Shown here: in pieces, positions 37,921 through 56,140 of the stretch
Layout of the letters: each line of letters opens with the position of its first letter
Numbering within the stretch: position 1 is the first letter of the stretch
Source: Plantactinospora sp. BC1
GTDB taxonomy: Bacteria > Actinomycetota > Actinomycetes > Mycobacteriales > Micromonosporaceae
Length of the DNA: 64,000 nt
Assembly: GCF_003030345.1 (NCBI RefSeq)
Contig: NZ_CP028158.1
Span: forward strand, 4,588,001 to 4,652,000
Direction: 5' to 3'
Made by a program: the position numbers and the translations under genes
Notes under the pieces: generated by a model
Told to the model about the DNA's origin: nothing
Databases searched by the model: none
Seen by the model: only the letters and a program-made list of their open reading frames with translations

Positions 37921-38004
37921 ATGAGAACCAGACCCGACGCCCAGCGCCGGTCGCGGCACGGCCACGTCCCGAGACGGCCACCGGCGAACGGCGGCGATCC
38001 GTGA
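37921..38004 (+). CDS. 27-residue leader ORF coupled to the GGDEF-EAL gene
   Basis: ATG 37921 follows a GGGAGGGGG ribosome site, and the peptide MRTRPDAQRRSRHGHVPRRP continues to 27 residues, rich in Arg. Its TGA overlaps the GTG of the large downstream gene (GTGA), which has no ribosome site of its own. This arrangement indicates translational coupling. The peptide itself may be unimportant, and whether it is conserved is not known. Confidence 0.5.
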   Translation: MRTRPDAQRRSRHGHVPRRPPANGGDP

Positions 38005-40757
38005 CGTCCGGGCGTCGGTCCGGGCGTTTCCTCGCCCTGGTCGGCATCGCGTCGGCACCCCGTCGGGTGCGCGTGCTCACCCTCACCGTCCTGCCCGTCG
38101 CGGTGACCCTCGTCGCGGCCGGTCTGCTCATCCCCACCGACCTGCCCGCCGACGACCCGCTGCCGGCGATGGCCCGGCTCGGCATCGCCACCGCCGTGAT
38201 GGCGACGGCACAGCTCTTCCGGCTGCGGTTCCGGGTCGGTTCGGGCCGGGTCAGCGTCACCTGGGGCGAGGCGTCCCTCATCATCGGCCTCTCCCTGGTC
38301 CCGCCCGGCTGGCTGCCGGCCGCCGCCCTGCTCGGCGCGGTGCTGGCCTGGACGCTGCTGACGATCTTCGTGGACCGGCGTTCGTCGCTGGACGTCGTAC
38401 ACAGCGCCGCCTCGCTGACCATCTCCGTCGCGCTCGCCGTCACGGTCGCGCTGACCGTCGCCGGTGCGCTCGGCACGCCCGTACCGGACGTGCTCGGCAC
38501 CCGCCTCGTCACCGAGCTGACGCCGCCGCTGATCGCCGCGCTCGCGGTCGGGTCGATGACGTACCTGCTGGTCACCGCCGGGCTGGCCGGATTCACCCTG
38601 TCGCTGCGGCACGGCGAACGGCTCTGGCCGGCGCTGCTGCGCGCCCTACAGGGCAAGCTGCTGATGTTCGTCGGCAACGTCTTCGTCGGGCTGGCCGTGG
38701 TGGCCGTGGTCGAGTACGACCCGCGCTGGCTGCTCTTCCTGCCGCCGGTGCTCTGGCTGCTCCAGCAGACGTACAGTCAGCGGCTCCGCGCCGACGACGA
38801 GCGACGCGCCTGGCGGGCCCTTGCCGAGGCCACCGGCGCGCTCAACCAGCTCGACGAGCACGGCGTCGCGACCGCCGGGGTGGCCGGCCCGCTGGCCCTG
38901 TTCGGCGCGGAGTGGGTCGAGGTGGACGTGCGGCGCGGCGACGGGCGGTGGCGGCGCTACCGTGGCGAGCCGGGCGGTCCGGTGGTGCACCGCGACCTGA
39001 CCACCGCCGAGCGGGCCGACAGCGGCGAACGGGCCGGCTTCCCGGCGCCGCCGGACGACGGAACCGCCCGGCTGCCCTTCGCCAGCCGGCTCGGCCTGGA
39101 TCTGGCCGCGAGCCAGGTCGGCGGCGACCTGTCGACCGGCCGCGCTGCCGGCATCGACGGTCGGGCCGGCGCCGAGCACGGTCCGGCGGCCACCGGACGG
39201 GCCGACCAGGAGCTGACCCGGCCGCTTGTGGTGGGCAGCTCCCCGGTCGGCGAGCTGCGGGTACGCTTCCCCCGCTCCGCCCCGCCGAGCCAGCGGGAGC
39301 AGGACGCGCTCTCGGCGTTCGGCGACGCGCTGGCGGCGGCCCTGCACGACGCGGCGACGCACCGCCAGCTCCGGCTGGTGACGGCCCGCTCGTCGTACGA
39401 GGCGGTGCACGACGCGCTGACCAACCTGATCAACCGGGCCGCCCTGCTGAGCAAGGGCGACCTGGCGCTGCACCAGCTCGGCCACGACCACCCGGTGGCC
39501 CTGCTGCTGCTCGACATCAACCACTTCAAAGAGGTCAACGACACGCTCGGGCACGCGGCCGGCGACGAGCTGCTCCAGGTGACCGCCGACCGGCTGGACG
39601 CGCTGGTCCGCCCCGGTGAGCTGCTGGGCCGGCTCGGCGGTGACGAGTTCGCGCTGCTGATCCCCTCCCCGGCGGTACTGGCCGAGCCGGCCACCGACCG
39701 GTCGCCGATGCCGAACGTGCTCCGCCGCGCCCGCGAGATCGTCGAGCTGCTCGCCACCCCGATCGAGGTGGCCGGGGTGCGGATGTCGGTCGAGGTCTCC
39801 GTCGGGGTGGTGGTGGCCGGTGCGGGTACCGCCGACATGACCGAGCTGCTGCGCCGGGCCGACATCGCGATGTACCAGGCGAAGCAGGGCGGCGGCAGCG
39901 TCGCGTCGTACGACAGTGCCCGGGACGCGGCCAGCACCGACAAGCTCGCCCTCCTCGCCGAGCTGCGCGAGGCGCTGGACGTGGACGACCAGCTCGAGTT
40001 GGCGCTCCAGCCGGCGGTGGACCTCTGCACCGGGGAGCCGACCGGGGTGGAGGCGCTGATCCGCTGGCGGCACCCCCGGCGGGGCCGGCTCACCCCGGCC
40101 GACTTCGTCCGGACCATCGAGGGCAGCGAACTGCTCGGCGCCTTCACCCGCTATGTGGTGGACAAGGCGCTCGGCGTCGCGGCCGACTGGGCCCGGCACG
40201 GTCTCGACGTACCGATCTCGATCAACCTGTCGGCGCGCAGCCTGCTCGACCCGAGGCTGCCGGCCGAGGTGGCCGAGTCGCTGCGCCGGCACCAGGTGCC
40301 GGCGCACCGGCTGGTGCTGGAGATCACCGAGACGGTGGTGATGAGCGAGCTGGAGGTCATCGACGAGGTGCTCTCCGCGCTGCGCGCGATGGGCGTGCAG
40401 TTGGCGGTCGACGACTTCGGCACCGGCTTCTCCTCGCTGACCTTCCTGACCCGGATCTCGGTGGACGAACTCAAGGTCGACCGGTCGTTCGTGATGAAGA
40501 TGGCGGAGTCACCGGAGGCGGCGGCGATCGTCCGGACCACCGTGGACCTCGGCCGCGAGCTGGGGCTGCGGGTGGTGGCCGAGGGGGTGGAGACCGCCGA
40601 CCAGCGGGCCGCGCTCGCCGAGCTGGGCTGCACCGCCGCGCAGGGCTACCACTTCTTCCGGCCGATGCCGTCGGACAAGATCGTCGCGGTGCTCCGGTCG
40701 CTGCTCGACTCCGCGCAGGCGCGGATCCTGCCGCTGCGCGCCGACGGCGCCTCGTAG
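38001..40757 (+). CDS. GGDEF-EAL membrane protein (c-di-GMP metabolism)
   Basis: A 918-residue protein with about seven to eight membrane helices in the first 260 residues, a variable GAF-like region (about 280-440), then GGDEF and EAL domains. GGDEF is intact (GRLGGDEFALL, near 546). The EAL part keeps VEALIRWRHP, INLSARSL, ITETVV, DDFGTGFSS, LKVDRSF and EGVET. The inhibitory I-site reads RPGE, five residues before GGDEF, instead of RxxD. Both cyclase and phosphodiesterase activity are possible; phosphodiesterase looks well preserved. GTG 38001 is coupled to a leader ORF. Confidence 0.9.
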   Translation: MTSGRRSGRFLALVGIASAPRRVRVLTLTVLPVAVTLVAAGLLIPTDLPADDPLPAMARLGIATAVMATAQLFRLRFRVGSGRVSVTWGEASLIIGLSLVPPGWLPAAALLGAVLAWTLLTIFVDRRSSLDVVHSAASLTISVALAVTVALTVAGALGTPVPDVLGTRLVTELTPPLIAALAVGSMTYLLVTAGLAGFTLSLRHGERLWPALLRALQGKLLMFVGNVFVGLAVVAVVEYDPRWLLFLPPVLWLLQQTYSQRLRADDERRAWRALAEATGALNQLDEHGVATAGVAGPLALFGAEWVEVDVRRGDGRWRRYRGEPGGPVVHRDLTTAERADSGERAGFPAPPDDGTARLPFASRLGLDLAASQVGGDLSTGRAAGIDGRAGAEHGPAATGRADQELTRPLVVGSSPVGELRVRFPRSAPPSQREQDALSAFGDALAAALHDAATHRQLRLVTARSSYEAVHDALTNLINRAALLSKGDLALHQLGHDHPVALLLLDINHFKEVNDTLGHAAGDELLQVTADRLDALVRPGELLGRLGGDEFALLIPSPAVLAEPATDRSPMPNVLRRAREIVELLATPIEVAGVRMSVEVSVGVVVAGAGTADMTELLRRADIAMYQAKQGGGSVASYDSARDAASTDKLALLAELREALDVDDQLELALQPAVDLCTGEPTGVEALIRWRHPRRGRLTPADFVRTIEGSELLGAFTRYVVDKALGVAADWARHGLDVPISINLSARSLLDPRLPAEVAESLRRHQVPAHRLVLEITETVVMSELEVIDEVLSALRAMGVQLAVDDFGTGFSSLTFLTRISVDELKVDRSFVMKMAESPEAAAIVRTTVDLGRELGLRVVAEGVETADQRAALAELGCTAAQGYHFFRPMPSDKIVAVLRSLLDSAQARILPLRADGAS

Positions 40758-46153: not shown

Positions 46154-49100
46154 TCAGCGCATCCCGCGTACCGCCCGGAAGCGCTCCTGGGTGCGGCGCC
46201 GGTTCTCGTTGCTGGCCCCGAACGCCAGCAGCAGCAGGCCGACCGGGATCAGCACCAGCCACGGCCCGAAGCTGAACAGGGCGCGCAGCGCGGCCAGCGC
46301 GGTCACCACCGCCCCGATGATCACCGGGGCCTGCTGCCGCCGGTTGGATCCCCAGATCAGCGTGGCCACCCCGCCGAGCAGCAGCAGCACCTGACGGATC
46401 GCGCTGTCGTTGCCGGCCAGCACGATCACCAGGGTGGGCAGGAACGCCGCCACCAGCGCCGGCCCGTACGCCACCCAACTGCTCAGGTCGGCGCGGTGCC
46501 GCATCTCCAGCAGGCCGACCAGCAGGGCCAGGACGGCGAACGCCAGCGTGTACGCCTCCGGCAGCGCCACGTCGGCGAGCGCCATCAGCATCCACCAGGC
46601 GACGACCTCACAACCGACCGCCGACCAGAAGAGCGTGCGCCGCTCGGCCGTACGACGGTACGGCCGTACCGCCGCCATGCCGAGCACGGCGCCCCAGGCG
46701 GCGAGCAGCGCGGCGATGTGCCGGGGTGAGTCGTAGGCGAGCGCGGCGGCGATGAGCGCGGCAGCGTACCCGCTCCACTCCACCGTGGTCGCCTCGCGGA
46801 TCGCCTCCGGCCGGCGCAGTCGGGGCAGCATCGCCGCGACCAGCAGCAGCACCGCGCCCACCGCCAGCACCCCGAACGCGGACCAGGCCGGGTCGAGCCC
46901 GAGCACCAGCCCGAGGGTGAAGACGAAGGTCTGGGCCATCACCGAGGCGAAGAGCCAGCCGAGGATGCGGGCGTTCTGGGTCCGGCCGCCGAGCGCGGCG
47001 ACCGCGCCGACCCCCACCGCCGCGCCCAGGGTGAACAGGGTCAGCTCCCGGCTGGCCAGCGCGCCGGCCAGCCCGGCCCCACCGGCGGCCAGCCCGATGC
47101 CGAAGACCAGGATCCGGGTCAGCCGCAGCGAGCGGGCGACCTCGGCGTCCGGCGGCGGCGGGGTCAGGGCCAGCCCGAGCATCGCGATGGTGAAGACGGC
47201 GAGCGCCGCCAGGGTGCCGTTCGGCCAGGCCAGGTCGAGCGAGATCGGGGTGATCAGCAGGGTGATCGCGGCGCCGGGCAGCACCACGGGTACGGCCCGG
47301 GCCGGCCGTCCGCCGCTGAACCCGGTGGCGGCCAGCCCGGCCGCGATGGTCAGCAGCAGCGCCGCCAGCACGTTGCCGGGGTCGACGGCACCGGGCTCCG
47401 GGTCGACGAGCGCGGCCGGCACCCCGTCCCAGATCTGGGTGAGCGTCTGGTACGGCTCGACCAGCGCCACCACCAGGGCAGGCGCCAGCGCGGCCACCGC
47501 CAGGGCGGTCGGCAGCGCCGCCGCGAGCATCGCCCCGACGGCCGGGCTGACCGACCAGCGGCCGCCCCGCGCCGGCTCGGGCAGCCGGCGCAGCGCGCCG
47601 CCGAGCATCACCGACCAGCGTCGGATCGGCTCCCGCAGCGGGGTCGGGGCCGGGGTGACCGCCCGGATCAGCTCGGCGAGCACCCCGAGCAGTACGGCCG
47701 CGGCGGCGTAGACGCCCCAGGGCAGGCCGGTGAAGAGCGCCGCCACCGAGGTCGCGGTGGCACCGCCGACGATGCCCATCGTGGCGTACGGGAGGTATTG
47801 CGGGACCTGGCGGCGGACCAGTCCGGTCACCGCGACGCCGAGGCTCGCCCCGGCGAGGGTGGCCAGCACCACCACCTCGGCCGGCCGGTGCAGCGCGGCG
47901 GCGAGCGAGGCGAGCGCCCCGCTGAGCGCGAAGAGCGCCCCACCGGCGGCGAGCCCGCCGATCTGGGCGGTCTGCGGCGGCATCGACCAGGTGTCGGCCT
48001 CGTCCGCCGGGCCGGAGAGGGTACCGACGACCCGGGCCAGGATGGCGACGACCGCCCCGATCAGCGCGACGATGCCGAGCGCGGCGGCGGTCGTCCACGG
48101 CCGGACCAGGCTCGCCCCGACCGCGTGCAGGGCCACGACGCCGGCCACGGTGGCCCGGGCCAGCCCGGCCCGGGGATCGCTGGCGACGACCGAACTCACC
48201 CCGTAGACGGTGGCGACCGCCCCGCCGACCACGATCGGGGACCACCAGGGCAGCCCGAACGCCGCCGGGGTGCCGATGGTGGCGAGTCCGACACAGACGG
48301 CGGCGACGTCGTACGCCCACGGCCGGGGCAGGGCGATCGCGGCGGCGCCGGCCAGCAGGAGCAGCGCGACCGGGGCCTGCCAGCCGGTGCCGGTCTCGCT
48401 GACGTGCCACTGCGCGAGGTCGGCCGCCCAGAGCCGGCCCGGGGTGGCCAGCACCTGGAGGCCGCCGCTCAGCGCCGTCCAGCCGGCGAGCAGCGCCACG
48501 ATGCCGCCGGTCAGCGCGATGCCGAGGATCGGTCCGCGCCGCCACTCGACCGGCATGGCCCGGATTCCGGCGGCCACCACCAGGATGAGGAAGGCGGCGG
48601 CGGCCAGCTCGGCGCCGTCGCCGAGGATGCCGGCGATCCGGGCGAGGGTGCCGACCAGGGCGGCGGTGACCGCCGCGGCGGCGATGTCCGAGCCGTCGAG
48701 CAGCCGGTCCGCCCGCCGGCCGGAGTCGATCGACGGCGCCAGCACCAGCAGTACCGCGCTGACCAGCAGCAGCCCGCCGACCAGGGTGTCCGGCAGGGTG
48801 GCGCCGGGTGCGCCGAAGGCCGCCGCGGTGACCGCGAGTGCGCCGAGGCCGGTACCGAGGGCCAGCGGCACGCTGATCTGCCGCTGGGCGACCTGGGTCA
48901 CCGCCGCGTAGCAGAGCACCGCGCAGACGGCCAGGAAGCTGGCGGCGAGGACCGGTTCGGTGGCCTCCCGTACCGACAGGGCGGTCGGGGTGGGGTCGAC
49001 GGGTACCGCCGAGGCGACGAAGGCCGCCACCGCACCGGGGAAGGCGAACGCCGCCCCGCCGGCCGCCCAGTCGCCGACCAGGCCGGACCACCGGCCCGCC

Positions 49101-51199
49101 GGGGTGGTACGGGCGAGCGGGGCGAGCGCCACCAGCGCACCGCCGACGGCGAGCGCGAAGAGTACGGCCGCGGTCAGGCCGGGCCGGGCCACCGAGGCGG
49201 CCGCCCCGGCGAGCCCCACCACGGCGGCGGCGACGGCGTGGGTCAGCGCGGCCCGCCGGGTCTCGGCGGTCAGCCCGACCACCCCGATGGCGACGGCGAC
49301 CAGCACCGGTGGCCAGGGAGCGGCGACCCAGCCGAGCCCGAACGAGGCGGGCATGGCGAGTGCGGTCAGCGCCGCACCGACCACGGCGAACTCGCGGCGC
49401 ACCTCCGGCGGCGAGGAGAGCACGGCGGCGATGGTGAGCAGCAGGGCGGTGACGGCGAGCTGCCAGGAGGTGTCGCCGACCCCGGCGGCGAGCTTTCCGG
49501 GGTATTCGGAGAGATCGGCCTCCCAGACCGGGAGCGCGGCCCGGATCGGGGCCAGGGCGGCCCGCAGCGCCCCGCCGGCCACCACGATGCCGATGACGAT
49601 CAGGGCGGCGGCGGAGGCGAGTTGCGGCCCGCGCCGGGCCGCCTCGGGGACCGCGCGTACGCCGAGCCCGGTCAGCGCGATGACGGCGGCGATCACCACC
49701 AGGGCCCGCCCCGGCAGGGCGACCGCGGCGACCCGGCCGGCGGCGCCGATCACGGCCAGGGTCAGGATCCCGGCGCCGATGTCCGGCAGGGGCGGCCGGC
49801 GCAGCACCAGCGCACCGACCATGCCGACCCCGGCGGCGAGCAGCAGCGCCAGGCCGGCCCGGGACGCGCCCGGTACGGTGTCGGCGTTCACCAGCGCGAT
49901 GACGGCGCAGACCACGGCGACGGCGAAGGCCAGCCCGTGCAGCGCCCAGGCCAGTTCCCGGACCCAGGGGGTGCGGGTCGTCGACCGGACGCCGGGGGTG
50001 CGGACCCGCTTCGTCGGCCCGCCCAGCGCCGGATCGGCCTGGACGACCGCGTCCGCCTCCTCGGGAAAGGTCTCCGGCCGATCCGGGCCGATCCCGTCCG
50101 GGTCGGTCGGGTCGCCGCCCACCCGTCCCGGCCGCTCGTCGGGGCGGACTCTCGGCGTGCCGGGCGGGGCGGTCACCGGCACCTCGGGGCCGAACCGGAA
50201 CCGGGCCGGCCAGCCGGTCAGCCGCCCGTCGTCACCGAAGAGCCGACCGAGATAGAGGTTGCCGACCGCCACCGCCGCCAGTACCACGGCCCAGCCGGCC
50301 GGCCCGGTGACGAAGGAGTACGCCAGCAGCGGCAGGATCGGCTGCACGGCGAGTACGGCCGCGTAGCGGGGGGCGTTCAGCCCGGTCACCGAGGCGTACC
50401 CGGCGGCGACGGCGGCGGTGAGCAGGAAGGTCAGCCCGGCGAAGAGCGACCCGGGCAGTCCACTGTCGCCGAACCGGTCGACGGTCCAGAGCGAGTACCC
50501 GGTCAGCGGCACCAGCAGCAGCCCGACCGCCGCGATGGTCTCGGCGGTGGCGCTCAACCCGCGCTGGGCCACCCGGGGCGGTACGGCCAGCATCAGCGCG
50601 GTGGCCAGCACCAGGATCGCGACCCGGCTGAAGTCGTCCAGCGAGCTGAGCGCGACCGCGACGAAGACCACCGCCGCGATGCCGAGCAGCAGCGCCCCGA
50701 GCCCGAGCAGGATGTTCTGCACCTCGCGGGTGGAGGCCTCGGGTCGGGCCTTCCCGCCGTCGTCCCAGCTCGGCTCGGCGCCGGCCGGTGGGGGTGGCGG
50801 CGGTGGGGGCGGTGTGCTGGGTGTGGTCCGGTCGGGGCCGCTCCTCGGCTGTCGGGGTACCCGGGGTGGCGGCCCGCCCGGGGCGGTCCCGGGCGCGGCG
50901 GTCGGTGGGCGCCGGTTGGCCTTGCGCCGGATCACCCGGCGCGGCTTGGTGTTCTGCTTGCGGCGCTGGTCCGCCGCGTGCGACAGGATGTCCCGCTGGA
51001 AGAGCGCCGCCTGCATCTGCGAGGCGATCGTCTTCTGCTCCCTGGCGAGCGCCGCCTCGCGGATCTTCATCTCGGCGATGGAGCGCTCGATCCGGGCGAC
51101 GTCGTCGGCCCACCGGAGCTGCTCGGTCCCGCAGTGCGGGCAGTGTGGTGCCGGCTCGATCTCCCGGCCGCACGAGGAGCACTGGTACGTCGTACTCAC
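46154..51199 (-). CDS. Giant zinc-ribbon polytopic membrane protein, 1681 aa
   Basis: An unusually large integral membrane protein. Residues 7-23 form a zinc ribbon (CSSC and CPHC). A coiled coil (about 30-85) and a basic Pro-rich segment with a run of nine or ten Pro follow (about 90-145). The remaining 1500 residues are almost wholly hydrophobic, with several dozen helices in repeating Ala/Gly/Val/Leu-rich bundles and one acidic cytoplasmic loop near 335-400. GTG 51199 follows GGAGGGGG. It is conserved in type in actinobacteria, with no proven function. It stands alone. Confidence 0.82.
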   Translation of the reverse strand: MSTTYQCSSCGREIEPAPHCPHCGTEQLRWADDVARIERSIAEMKIREAALAREQKTIASQMQAALFQRDILSHAADQRRKQNTKPRRVIRRKANRRPPTAAPGTAPGGPPPRVPRQPRSGPDRTTPSTPPPPPPPPPAGAEPSWDDGGKARPEASTREVQNILLGLGALLLGIAAVVFVAVALSSLDDFSRVAILVLATALMLAVPPRVAQRGLSATAETIAAVGLLLVPLTGYSLWTVDRFGDSGLPGSLFAGLTFLLTAAVAAGYASVTGLNAPRYAAVLAVQPILPLLAYSFVTGPAGWAVVLAAVAVGNLYLGRLFGDDGRLTGWPARFRFGPEVPVTAPPGTPRVRPDERPGRVGGDPTDPDGIGPDRPETFPEEADAVVQADPALGGPTKRVRTPGVRSTTRTPWVRELAWALHGLAFAVAVVCAVIALVNADTVPGASRAGLALLLAAGVGMVGALVLRRPPLPDIGAGILTLAVIGAAGRVAAVALPGRALVVIAAVIALTGLGVRAVPEAARRGPQLASAAALIVIGIVVAGGALRAALAPIRAALPVWEADLSEYPGKLAAGVGDTSWQLAVTALLLTIAAVLSSPPEVRREFAVVGAALTALAMPASFGLGWVAAPWPPVLVAVAIGVVGLTAETRRAALTHAVAAAVVGLAGAAASVARPGLTAAVLFALAVGGALVALAPLARTTPAGRWSGLVGDWAAGGAAFAFPGAVAAFVASAVPVDPTPTALSVREATEPVLAASFLAVCAVLCYAAVTQVAQRQISVPLALGTGLGALAVTAAAFGAPGATLPDTLVGGLLLVSAVLLVLAPSIDSGRRADRLLDGSDIAAAAVTAALVGTLARIAGILGDGAELAAAAFLILVVAAGIRAMPVEWRRGPILGIALTGGIVALLAGWTALSGGLQVLATPGRLWAADLAQWHVSETGTGWQAPVALLLLAGAAAIALPRPWAYDVAAVCVGLATIGTPAAFGLPWWSPIVVGGAVATVYGVSSVVASDPRAGLARATVAGVVALHAVGASLVRPWTTAAALGIVALIGAVVAILARVVGTLSGPADEADTWSMPPQTAQIGGLAAGGALFALSGALASLAAALHRPAEVVVLATLAGASLGVAVTGLVRRQVPQYLPYATMGIVGGATATSVAALFTGLPWGVYAAAAVLLGVLAELIRAVTPAPTPLREPIRRWSVMLGGALRRLPEPARGGRWSVSPAVGAMLAAALPTALAVAALAPALVVALVEPYQTLTQIWDGVPAALVDPEPGAVDPGNVLAALLLTIAAGLAATGFSGGRPARAVPVVLPGAAITLLITPISLDLAWPNGTLAALAVFTIAMLGLALTPPPPDAEVARSLRLTRILVFGIGLAAGGAGLAGALASRELTLFTLGAAVGVGAVAALGGRTQNARILGWLFASVMAQTFVFTLGLVLGLDPAWSAFGVLAVGAVLLLVAAMLPRLRRPEAIREATTVEWSGYAAALIAAALAYDSPRHIAALLAAWGAVLGMAAVRPYRRTAERRTLFWSAVGCEVVAWWMLMALADVALPEAYTLAFAVLALLVGLLEMRHRADLSSWVAYGPALVAAFLPTLVIVLAGNDSAIRQVLLLLGGVATLIWGSNRRQQAPVIIGAVVTALAALRALFSFGPWLVLIPVGLLLLAFGASNENRRRTQERFRAVRGMR

Positions 51200-51315: not shown

Positions 51316-51354
51316 AAAAGGCCGGCCGTGGACCTGGTCGGGTCCACGGCCGGC
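51316..51354 (-). terminator. Intrinsic terminator of the UDP-glucose dehydrogenase gene
   Basis: A 14-bp perfect stem (51321-51334 with 51341-51354) and 6-base loop. Followed on the minus strand by TTTTAG, one of few in this window with a T-run. It separates ugd from the giant membrane protein gene. Confidence 0.8.
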
Positions 51355-53287: not shown

Positions 53288-56140
53288 ATGACGGTTCCGA
53301 AGTTCCCCCCGACGCCCGCTCCGAAGCCTCCCAGATCGATGTCCCGGCGCCTCGGCGGGGCAGCTGTCGCCCTGCTGCTCGCCCCGCTGCCGCTGCTGCC
53401 CGGCGCCCCGGCCGCCGCCCACCCGGGCAAGCCGCCGACCCCGGCCGGATGCAGCCAGGACCCGTCCGCCCGGCTCACCGGGGTACCGAGCCCGGAGCGG
53501 CACCTCGGCTTCCCGCTCGGCCTCGGCCAGCAGCGGGTGGTCACCGACGACGAGATCCGCTCGTACCTCGGTGCCGTCGACGCCGCCTCCGACCGGGTCG
53601 TCACCGGCAACGTCGGCAACAGCGTGCTCGGCCAGTCGATGCCGTACGCGATCGTCTCCGACCCCGGCCACCTGCGCCGGGGCGAGCTGGAGAAGATCGC
53701 CGAGAACATCCGCGATCTGCGCGACCCGCGCAGGCTGTCGGACCGGAAGGCGGCGGAGATCGCCGCGAAGGGCCCCGCGATCGTCTGGGTGACCGGCAAC
53801 GTGCACGGCGGCGAGAAGTCCGGCGGCGACGCCGCGCTGAAGACCCTCTACGAGCTGGCCGCCGGCCTCTCCTGTGAGGTACGCGAGCGCAACCGGAACC
53901 TCGTCACGATCATCGTGCCGACGCAGAACCCGGACGGCCGGGACGCCAGCCGCCGGCAGAACGAGTACGGCTTCGACCTGAACCGGGACTGGTTCTCCCG
54001 TACCCAGCCGGAGACCGACGCCAAGCTGGAGATGCTGCGCCGCTATCCGCCGCAGGTCTACGTCGACGCGCACGAGATGGGCGGCGACGAGTACTTCTTC
54101 CCGCCGAACGCGGACCCGATCCACCACGAGATCTCCGACGAGGCGGTCGACTGGATCAACCGGATCGGCGCGGCCAACGCCGAGGGCTTCGGCTACAACG
54201 GCGCCTGCACCGAGACGGTCACCAGCGAGTGCTACTTCAACTACGACACCTACGACATGTTCTTCATGGGGTACGGCGACACGGTGCCGGCCACCGGCTT
54301 CGGCGCCGCCGGGATGACGTACGAGAAGGGCAGCTCCTCGGCGGTCCAGGACCGGGTGCAGCAGCAGTTCAACACCCAGTGGGCAACCGTCGGCTGGGCC
54401 TCGGAGAACCGGCGGGAGATCCTGTCGGACTACTTCCGGATCTGGTCCGACGCCCTGGCCGAGGGTCGGGCCGGCAAGCTCCAGCCGAACGAGGTCGTGC
54501 AGCCGACCAACGAGGTCCAGTTCCCGGTGCCGGACATCACCGTCCGGTCGTACTTCCTGCTGCCGAACCGGCAGCTCGGCGACGTACGCCAGCTCGTCGA
54601 GCGGCTGCGCCGGATGGACGTCGAGGTGTACCGGCTGACCAAGCCGGTGAAGGTGCCGAACGCGAAGATCTTCGGCGGCCGGTCGGCCCGGAACCACACC
54701 GTGCCGGCGGGCGCGTACTGGATCCCGATGGAGCAGCCGCAGAAGCACTGGATCCAGGCGATCCTGGGCGAGGACCCGTACGTCCCGTTCCCGTACTTCT
54801 ACGACGTCTCGTCCTGGAGCAACCCGCTGCTGATGGGCGTGGAGACGATCTACACCGGTGACCGGCTCTCGCCGCGGGCGGAACGGGTCCGCGGCATCGA
54901 CGGCGGGCGCGGCGGGTACGCGCCGAGGCACGGCTCGTACGCGTACCCGCTGGACTCGGCGGCGGCGGCCGAGCTGACCTTCAAGCTGCTCGGCGCGGGC
55001 GTCGAACTGCGCCGCGACCAGCGCAGCGGCGTCGTCACCCTGCCGGCGGCGGCCCTGACCGGCTCGCACGACCGGCTCGCCCGCTCCCTCGGGGTGACCC
55101 TGACCGCGAGCTGGCGCGGCGTCACCGGCACCCGGCTGGCCCTGCCCGACGTCGGCCTCTACGCCGGCACCGGCATCTCCACCACCTCCGGCTCGCACGG
55201 CGAGGCCCGGTACGTCCTCGGCGACCAGTGGGGCCTCGACCTCAAGCCGGTGAGCACGGCGGACATCAACGACAACACCGCCGCCTTCACCGGCCGGACC
55301 GTCCTGCTGGTGCCGGACGGCAGCAACCCGACCGGCGGCCTCACCGCCGCCGGCCAGGCCAACCTGCGGGCCTGGGTGGCGGCCGGCGGCACCTACGTCG
55401 GGCTGCGCAACCAGGGCACCCGGATGGCCCGCTCCGCCGGGCTCACCTCGACGGTCGAGCTGCCGAAGCCGACCGACTACACGGTGATCGGCTCGCACCT
55501 GCGGGTCGACGTCGACCGGAGCAGCCCGGTCGGGCTGGGCCGGCCGGCCGAGGACTTCGAGTTCAACAACAACGACTCGATCCTGTCGCCGAGCACCACG
55601 GGTAGGAACGTGCTGACGTACCCGGCCGACGGGCGGTTCTGGCTCAACGGCTTCACCGAGCACGCGGACGCGCTCAAGGGCACGGTCGCGCTGGTCGACG
55701 AGCCGACCGGGGCCGGCCGGGCCGTGCTGTTCGCGTTCAACCCGCTGTTCCGGGCGTACAACGAGAGCGGGCTGCACCTGGTCGCCAACGCGCTGCTGGC
55801 ACCGCGTACCGCCCCGGCGGTCGCGGCGTCCCCGGGTGCCCGGGCGGCGGCTCCGGCCGTACCCCCGGCGCGGGCCTCGGCCGCAGCGGCGCCGGCGGCG
55901 GAGAACCTGGGTGGTGAATGGCGGCCGATCTCCATCCGGGTCGCCGCGACCGACCTGGACCGGACCCGGGCGATCGTCGCCCGGCACACCGGCGACGCCC
56001 AGGTCGGCACGGCGGGCGGTACGGCGTACCTGACCATCCCCAACCCGGAGGGTCTGACGTCGGACGAGCACCCGTTCCTGCGTGAACTGGTACGCGAGAT
56101 CCGCGCGGCGGGCATTCCGCTGCGTTCCGTCGTCGGCTAG
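53288..56140 (+). CDS. Secreted M14 family zinc carboxypeptidase
   Basis: A 950-residue exported metallopeptidase. A signal peptide (about 17-44, SRRLGGAAVALLLAPLPLL) ends at PAAAH. The catalytic domain spans about 80-390. Zinc ligands are H173 and E176 (NVHGGEKSGG) and H262 (VDAHEMGG). The substrate-binding Asn/Arg pair is in FDLNRDW, and the catalytic Glu is E346 (MTYEKGSS). The remaining 550 residues are beta-rich domains with a late Ala/Pro linker near 850. It probably degrades peptides or cell-wall stems outside the cell. An ATG at 53339 is a less likely start. Confidence 0.9.
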   Translation: MTVPKFPPTPAPKPPRSMSRRLGGAAVALLLAPLPLLPGAPAAAHPGKPPTPAGCSQDPSARLTGVPSPERHLGFPLGLGQQRVVTDDEIRSYLGAVDAASDRVVTGNVGNSVLGQSMPYAIVSDPGHLRRGELEKIAENIRDLRDPRRLSDRKAAEIAAKGPAIVWVTGNVHGGEKSGGDAALKTLYELAAGLSCEVRERNRNLVTIIVPTQNPDGRDASRRQNEYGFDLNRDWFSRTQPETDAKLEMLRRYPPQVYVDAHEMGGDEYFFPPNADPIHHEISDEAVDWINRIGAANAEGFGYNGACTETVTSECYFNYDTYDMFFMGYGDTVPATGFGAAGMTYEKGSSSAVQDRVQQQFNTQWATVGWASENRREILSDYFRIWSDALAEGRAGKLQPNEVVQPTNEVQFPVPDITVRSYFLLPNRQLGDVRQLVERLRRMDVEVYRLTKPVKVPNAKIFGGRSARNHTVPAGAYWIPMEQPQKHWIQAILGEDPYVPFPYFYDVSSWSNPLLMGVETIYTGDRLSPRAERVRGIDGGRGGYAPRHGSYAYPLDSAAAAELTFKLLGAGVELRRDQRSGVVTLPAAALTGSHDRLARSLGVTLTASWRGVTGTRLALPDVGLYAGTGISTTSGSHGEARYVLGDQWGLDLKPVSTADINDNTAAFTGRTVLLVPDGSNPTGGLTAAGQANLRAWVAAGGTYVGLRNQGTRMARSAGLTSTVELPKPTDYTVIGSHLRVDVDRSSPVGLGRPAEDFEFNNNDSILSPSTTGRNVLTYPADGRFWLNGFTEHADALKGTVALVDEPTGAGRAVLFAFNPLFRAYNESGLHLVANALLAPRTAPAVAASPGARAAAPAVPPARASAAAAPAAENLGGEWRPISIRVAATDLDRTRAIVARHTGDAQVGTAGGTAYLTIPNPEGLTSDEHPFLRELVREIRAAGIPLRSVVG

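Follow-up and report, generated by a model that had tools for sequence, protein, structure and literature searches.

The 64,000-nucleotide window analysed here, from Plantactinospora sp. BC1 (contig NZ_CP028158.1, forward-strand positions 4,588,001 to 4,652,000), carries on its minus strand a gene for a 1681-residue membrane protein. Residues 1496-1677 match the NCBIfam model NF047321 (SCO7613_CTERM) with 164.2 bits against a cut-off of 45, and the protein is a three-unit variant of this known, functionally open family. The sequence-only reading, a first description made without database searches, knew of no annotated function for such a protein; that holds for function but not for the family, which is curated and whose name-giver has one published deletion. 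The frame starts with GTG, directly preceded by the ribosome-binding-site-like ggaggggg, and the codon-position GC of 46154-51199 (77/58/95% at positions 1/2/3) is that of a genuine gene in a GC-rich genome. Other long frames overlap this interval (for example 1158 residues on the plus strand and 827 residues on the minus strand), and the family scan covered the 1681-residue frame. The 1681-residue frame combines the family match above cut-off with protein-level conservation in relatives.

The genome, a single 8.33-Mb contig, contains two SCO7613_CTERM copies, the 1681-residue protein and a 1223-residue paralogue at 3.30 Mb. The closest named relative of the former, at 92% identity, is from Plantactinospora mayteni. 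Of the 81 genomes sampled from the bacterial family, 74 have at least one match to the model, in a long or a short form (at least two matches in 56, one in 18), and 7 have none; genus g210, unlike most relatives, has no match in its three sampled genomes (G306, G344 and G364). Phylum-wide, matches occur in 34 of 296 genomes, 24 of them above cut-off. Pfam returned only sub-threshold DUF2157 and zinc-ribbon-like matches (five families listed at E<=1). When solved structures were searched with the single sequence, the one match up to E 1 was a urease chain (E 0.0066), which was taken as chance; with the profiles A2 and A3 nothing came up at E<=0.1. A role in anti-phage defence was rejected, PADLOC having no match at E<=0.01 for the protein or its paralogue.

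Tandem units in the membrane part

Profile self-comparison (hhalign) revealed three tandem units of ~340-365 residues each, designated R1, R2 and R3, which lie between an N-terminal and a C-terminal membrane domain (N- and C-domain). The profile windows were cut from 89 aligned long proteins, comprising the window protein, 19 proteins from further genomes and those of 69 of 80 named loci; 11 shorter proteins were left out and some rows are near-duplicates. At E<1e-3, 45 of the 231 non-overlapping window pairs were detected, compared with 0 of 231 when the second profile was reversed. The best pair, R1 against R2 at offsets of 359-372, reached 4.1e-27 and the best reversed control 0.0018, and the result was the same with a smaller set of 20 sequences (4.9e-24 versus 0.017 reversed). 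R3 aligns with R1 at an offset of ~697 (E 2.7e-7) and with R2 at offsets of 324-340 (best E 8.9e-5). The repeats rest on profiles, as a single-sequence BLASTP of the protein against itself found none. The earlier impression of repetitive helix bundles, for which self-alignment had been proposed as the check, is therefore borne out at the profile level with a clean reversed control, but escapes single-sequence BLASTP.

Relatives with one, two and three units

The same parts recur in shorter members of the family. Between the N- and C-domains lie ~352 residues in the one-unit form, ~727 in the two-unit form and ~1067 in the three-unit form, where the borders come from profile comparisons and the three-unit length excludes the 86-residue loop of the long form. 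Hydrophobic segments number 24, 36 and 46 in these forms, which indicates that length in the SCO7613 family differs, as judged from such counts, by whole 12-helix-type units.

The two-unit form is represented by the paralogue group (12 loci), which matches the long group in the N-domain (E 1.9e-48) and the C-domain (E 2e-41). The first unit of the paralogue matches both R1 (offset ~115) and R2 (offset ~480), and a match to R3 follows. Between paralogue and long-group profiles, 88 of 432 pairs were found at E<1e-4 against 0 reversed; compared with itself, without a reversed control, the paralogue showed a single repeat (120 pairs, the best at E 6.3e-7). The one-unit type is known from six proteins of g8, a genus that its best family scores suggest is Streptomyces, and shares with the long form the order of N-domain, unit and C-domain, with a single unit between the two domains. 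Comparison of the two forms, again without a reversed control, gave E values of 4.6e-22 for N, 1.9e-6 for R1, 3.1e-6 for R3, 4.5e-4 for R2 and 3.3e-30 for C. Many of the more distant relatives have a detectable N- and C-domain, but just one of 18 showed a unit at E<1e-3.

A tree was built from the N- and C-domains of 41 proteins. In it the long forms apart from the divergent L079 separate with a support of 1.0 and the short forms apart from L083 with 0.97; the support for placing L083 with the short forms is 0.74, and L079 has no firm place (0.19). L083 (4989-8552) encodes a two-unit protein at the purE-purK/ugd locus, which elsewhere carries the three-unit form, and is the sole SCO7613_CTERM match of genome G356. 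Because L083 has two units at this position, the ancestral protein of the locus may have had two.

Two further relatives depart from the standard forms. The long gene at L070 (7451-12564) is broken into two overlapping frames (1381 and 1461 residues) by a frameshift or a sequencing error. L096 (G268:C1:308176-309567) is a 1282-residue relative with two SCO7613_CTERM matches in one frame, and its C-domain may itself be duplicated.

Topology and head of the long form

Averaged over the 89-protein alignment, hydropathy identifies 46 hydrophobic segments; a single-sequence scan gives 47. Alternate loops tend to be rich in lysine and arginine, and both ends of the protein contain many of these residues. 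Under the positive-inside rule such K/R-rich parts are read as cytoplasmic, and so both ends are predicted to lie in the cytoplasm, which would require an even number of helices; the predicted total of about 46-48 membrane-crossing helices fits. To our knowledge this helix count is among the largest for a single bacterial polypeptide. Some 1500 residues of uninterrupted hydrophobic helices had been described; the huge helical membrane part is confirmed, but it is not fully continuous, as hydrophilic loops occur at ~326-411 and ~1180-1228. Three acidic residues are near-invariant: E220 (117/117 rows), E1548 (116/118) and E1665 (118/118). The features of the gene are collected in Table 1.

Table 1. 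Features of the three-unit gene and its upstream flank (window coordinates; residues numbered in the 1681-residue protein).
Feature	Position	Strand	Basis
Whole gene, three-unit SCO7613-type membrane protein, 1681 residues	46154..51199	minus	open reading frame and family model
Zinc-ribbon cysteines C7, C10, C20, C23	51131..51181	minus	17-sequence alignment A1
Probable coiled coil, residues 29-78	50966..51115	minus	heptad pattern; kept in relatives without zinc ribbon
Basic segment and polyproline linker, residues 79-150	50750..50965	minus	sequence
N-terminal membrane domain, residues 152-325, 6 hydrophobic segments, DUF2157-like	50225..50746	minus	DUF2157 25.1 bits; common to paralogue and one-unit type
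Hydrophilic K/R-rich loop, residues 326-411, predicted cytoplasmic	49967..50224	minus	K+R per loop; pLDDT mostly <50
Repeat unit R1, residues 412-776, 12 hydrophobic segments	48872..49966	minus	profile self-comparison; pLDDT mostly >80
Repeat unit R2, residues 777-1140, 12 hydrophobic segments	47780..48871	minus	R1-R2 profile alignment
Repeat unit R3, residues 1141-1478, first half shortened, 10 segments detected	46766..47779	minus	R1-R3 and R2-R3 profile alignments
C-terminal membrane domain, residues 1479-1681, 6 segments, SCO7613_CTERM	46157..46765	minus	NF047321
Terminator-like hairpin between ugd and the gene, perfect 14-bp stem, 6-nt loop, then CUUUU	51321..51354	minus	folding z-score and sequence

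The N-domain matches DUF2157 (PF09925) at 25.1 bits (E 1.5e-5), below the gathering score of 32.4. Similar matches occur in 12 of 45 long fragments at E<=0.01, in 7 of 16 shorter relatives at E<=0.1 and in 6 of 15 distant relatives at E<=0.05. One of the last, L196 (33.4 bits), exceeds the gathering score and passes the SCO7613_CTERM cut-off as well.

The head is as the sequence-only reading described it, with CxxC pairs, a charged coiled-coil-like stretch, a basic segment and a polyproline run. Its two CxxC pairs, C7/C10 and C20/C23, are ~9 residues apart and invariant among 17 aligned long proteins. Pfam zinc-ribbon models stayed below their cut-offs on the protein, and zinc binding is predicted from the cysteine pattern. 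Within their first 80 residues, 65 of the 89 long proteins have the two-CxxC pattern. Among the other 24, 18 (from Actinoplanes and relatives, for example Couchioplanes and Mangrovihabitans) begin at the coiled coil, and six have long upstream extensions or a frame change, as judged from their first 60 residues. CxxCG pairs were seen by eye in 10 of 12 two-unit proteins, L085 and L089 having long extensions instead, and the ribbon is absent from all six one-unit g8 proteins inspected. Since 18 long proteins start directly at the coiled coil, the zinc ribbon is dispensable. The constant part of the head looks like the coiled coil rather than the ribbon, since the latter is missing from some long and from one-unit relatives. 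In this charged stretch (residues 29-78) 10 of 14 a/d heptad positions are hydrophobic in the best register, compared with 23 of 50 residues overall, a count made on a single sequence without a formal coiled-coil program. The label 'zinc-ribbon' protein is thus apt for the sequence, but not as a constant feature of the long proteins.

Gene neighbourhood

The surroundings of the three-unit gene are conserved. Among the 80 named loci, ugd is upstream and co-directional in 55 of the 61 with enough flanking sequence and an acyl-CoA dehydrogenase gene is present in 58 of 61; a convergent purE lies within ~8 kb downstream in 69 of 71. In 18 of 20 further loci ugd, purE and purK are all present, while L074 has ugd without the pur genes and L079 has neither. 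This synteny looks like vertical inheritance. A 53-nucleotide stretch containing the ugd-side hairpin folds at -35 kcal/mol (z -6.44); a simple terminator scan, which required five T in eight, did not list the hairpin. As this strong hairpin separates it from ugd, the three-unit gene is probably its own transcription unit, and an operon with ugd is unlikely despite the co-directional arrangement.

The two-unit paralogue lies in different surroundings. On its strand a fatty acid desaturase gene follows in 7 of 12 loci and cutA1 precedes in 8 of 12, where the search used these two chosen genes and may have missed other conserved neighbours. The desaturase match (families assigned by Pfam) is within 250 bp of the paralogue in six loci and ~1.5 kb away in L084. 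The row cutA1, two-unit paralogue and desaturase on one strand, a possible operon, is found in L080 (3793-9120), L081, L082, L086, L089 and L091, with L084 further off. Neither cutA1 nor the desaturase was found at the six one-unit g8 loci. In the window the region is flanked by 38001-40757 (+), whose product looks, by eye and from its motifs, like a membrane GGDEF/EAL-type protein, and by 53288-56140 (+), which encodes a 950-residue M14 zinc carboxypeptidase (Pfam).

Predicted structure

AlphaFold2 modelled residues 150-1145 with a mean predicted local distance difference test (pLDDT) of 83.6 and a predicted template modelling (pTM) score of 0.67; the model of residues 771-1681 is weaker (74.2 and 0.43, respectively). 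Neither had a Foldseek match in the PDB at E<=0.001, and the 150-1145 model, compared with viral models as well, had none there at that threshold. Among the best 50 Foldseek matches of each model helical solenoids and toroids predominate (importins, CRM1, SKI, 14-3-3 and 7rdr); the transport proteins among the matches listed (P-glycoprotein, Mrp, complex I subunits, SUR1 and LYCHOS) have E values of 0.6 or worse. The designed circular repeat 7rdr superposes on the end of R3 and the C-domain with a Z of 11.7 and a root-mean-square deviation (rmsd) of 5.1 over 319 residues (Foldseek probability 0.95, E 0.39), and importin/CRM1-type repeats resemble the 150-1145 model with large rmsd. VIA-align gave Z scores of 10.7 for the ESX-3 core, 12.2 for LGN and near 9 for 14-3-3, several with an rmsd of 10-30. 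Since Z scores below ~13 are common for helical repeat models, and the idea comes from match lists rather than from inspected coordinates, the solenoid resemblance is a hint only. It would be a long shot to extend it to the family at large, that is, to view SCO7613 proteins as membrane-spanning alpha-solenoids in which whole 12-helix units are added or removed, as repeats are in a soluble solenoid, so that curved or ring-like walls of 24, 36 or 48 helices enclose or bind lipid. Such proteins would constitute an actinobacterial counterpart of the Pseudomonas protein Arc3A (considered below) and a new class of membrane-protein architecture.

Possible functions

The architecture is the solid part of these results. 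As to function, the best bet, with a probability of roughly 0.35, is that the protein serves membrane-lipid homeostasis, because its relatives distantly resemble DUF2339/Arc3A and a desaturase gene adjoins the paralogue. For example, the protein might sequester, move or clear abnormal lipids such as lysophospholipids. The tandem units, the series of one-, two- and three-unit forms and the effect of an SCO7613 deletion, described below, also count in favour. Units stacked side by side would form a curved membrane wall with a large lipid-facing surface, E220, E1548 and E1665 might be working or assembly sites, and the coiled coil could join copies or partners. Arc3A of Pseudomonas, a DUF2339 protein with 35 predicted helices, prevents the build-up of lysophosphatidylethanolamine and monolysocardiolipin under phospholipase attack (PMC8926400), and its protective effect against lipase effectors is repeated in a second paper (PMC12663445).

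The similarity was sought with a profile of 10 actinobacterial DUF2339 proteins standing in for Arc3A. The two-unit profile matches it near the N-terminus (150-313 against 116-268, E 3.7e-6) and the one-unit profile near the C-terminus (719-794 against 517-590, E 3.1e-6), in collinear order. A second DUF2339 master gave 4.8e-5 for the two-unit N-terminal and 3.2e-5 for the one-unit C-terminal match, and the controls for these queries reached 0.017 or worse when reversed and 0.016 or worse against the major facilitator superfamily (MFS). By eye, a GR...RR pattern is shared in the DUF2339 alignment, and a charged helical segment and a linker rich in proline open 6 of 10 DUF2339 proteins. SCO7613_CTERM also weakly matches (20.2 bits, E 5.1e-4, below cut-off) G043:C8:161166-161534, which lies inside a DUF2339 gene (160401-161939). 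Among the relatives, the Pfam DUF2339 model matches 1 of 45 long fragments (2.3e-4) and none of 16 shorter relatives at E<=0.1.

Several observations weigh against a lipid role. The Pfam DUF2339 model has no match in the 1681-residue protein even at E<=1, nor any above cut-off in the 81 genomes of the bacterial family, where five weak ones fall in other genes. Profiles of the long group against DUF2339 gave 0.0037 for the N-domain, 0.035 for the C-domain and 0.033 for the whole membrane part, the last against 0.039 reversed; DUF2157 entered this round of comparisons with 6 of 14 collected proteins. Pooled profiles gave 6e-5 to 8e-4 for N and 0.004 to 0.013 for C, alongside controls that reach 0.001 (MFS) and 0.0018 (reversed DUF2157). 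Because many profile pairs were compared, E values near 1e-4 are weak. The neighbours of the three-unit gene (ugd, purE, purK and the acyl-CoA dehydrogenase) are silent on lysolipids, and the search for the desaturase came up empty at 5 of 12 paralogues and at all six one-unit genes. The mechanism of Arc3A is itself unexplained (PMC8926400). The DUF2339/Arc3A link, as it emerges from these profile comparisons, is thus plausible but unproven.

It is less probable that the protein is a multi-repeat permease, a fusion of two or three transporter modules, one per 12-helix unit, for a soluble substrate. About 12 helices is the size of common secondary carriers, an MFS profile is weakly matched in its first half by positions 178-337 of the R3 module (E 0.0012) and the pooled C-domain reaches 0.001 against MFS. 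The Foldseek matches listed include some transport proteins, among them P-glycoprotein (9nfm, E 0.61), the Mrp antiporter complex (7d3u, E 0.65) and antiporter-like subunits of complex I (E 1.0-2.1). Against this, R1 (0.069) and R2 (0.26) do no better than reversed controls, no transporter family appears in Pfam at E<=1, and the PDB search of both models had nothing at E<=0.001. Transport was also raised for SCO7613. The one experiment on the family found in the open-access literature searched is the deletion of this gene in Streptomyces coelicolor (PMC8313934). The mutant contained less polyhydroxyalkanoate (PHA), 41.2% less according to spectrophotometry and 104 instead of 124 mg/L according to gas chromatography, and its growth was unharmed. 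The authors discussed whether the effect was indirect and, prompted by a predicted GylR link, raised glycerol transport as a question. SCO7613 was first proposed to be a PHA synthase, a reading that has the decrease in its favour but can be virtually dismissed here: the authors saw no catalytic triad around the putative lipase box, PHA was not abolished (PMC8313934), and no such family is among the five listed by Pfam at E<=1.

About as probable as a permease is an envelope-stress sensor, whose DUF2157-like part would sense membrane damage while the cytoplasmic head of zinc ribbon and coiled coil relays the signal, as in LiaF/PspC-type systems. It draws on the N-domain similarity and on L196, which carries both domains above their cut-offs; in LiaF the membrane part goes by the name DUF2157, and an N-terminal zinc ribbon is found in some PspC proteins (PMC11237479). 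The conserved neighbours tested are metabolic genes, however (selected neighbours rather than a systematic typing), the ribbon is missing from 18 of the 89 long proteins, and sensing alone does not explain 36-48 helices. Less probable still is that the protein organises the membrane passively, as a scaffold or corral by which a membrane patch is shaped or other proteins are held. Most structural resemblances are to stacked-helix solenoids and toroids (7rdr and importin/CRM1 types) and the number of units varies, in keeping with such a role, but the scores lie in the range common for helical repeats, and the near-invariant acidic residues in both terminal domains hint at more than a passive structure. 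The choice between scaffold and permease posed by the sequence-only reading is accordingly left undecided, the DUF2339/Arc3A likeness of the relatives pointing instead to lipid protection; clear full-length homology to a characterised transporter or enzyme, which that reading named as its refutation, did not appear.

Comparison with known systems

Of the known membrane proteins, PIEZO channels are likewise giant single polypeptides built from repeated membrane helices. Their repeats contain four helices, whereas the units of the 1681-residue protein have ~12, and PIEZO is not among the best 50 matches of either fold list. DUF2157 (PF09925), the membrane part of LiaF, resembles the N-domain, but the model spans 146 positions and, as stated above, the protein scores below its cut-off. 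The closest comparison is with SCO7613/NF047321, with the one-unit g8 proteins standing in for SCO7613 itself. The C-domain is above the cut-off of the model, and g8 proteins share N-domain, unit and C-domain with the long protein; the g8 type differs in having one unit, 24 segments and no zinc ribbon (n=6), compared with three units, 46 segments and a zinc ribbon. An uncharacterised family, widespread in one group of actinobacteria, thereby gains a clear anatomy and a growth rule, by which whole 12-helix-type units appear to be added in tandem.

Arc3A of Pseudomonas aeruginosa, whose partner genes are arc3B and estA, is also a very large polytopic membrane protein, and helix number varies within its family. 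It differs in being predicted to be lipidated and to span the periplasm (PMC8926400; the A/B naming is inconsistent between text and legend). DUF2339 shares with the shorter relatives of the 1681-residue protein a marginal, collinear profile similarity at both ends, while the Pfam DUF2339 model does not detect the long protein itself. If true, the Arc3A link would turn an 'unknown membrane protein' into a testable hypothesis, that of lysolipid damage control in Gram-positive bacteria.

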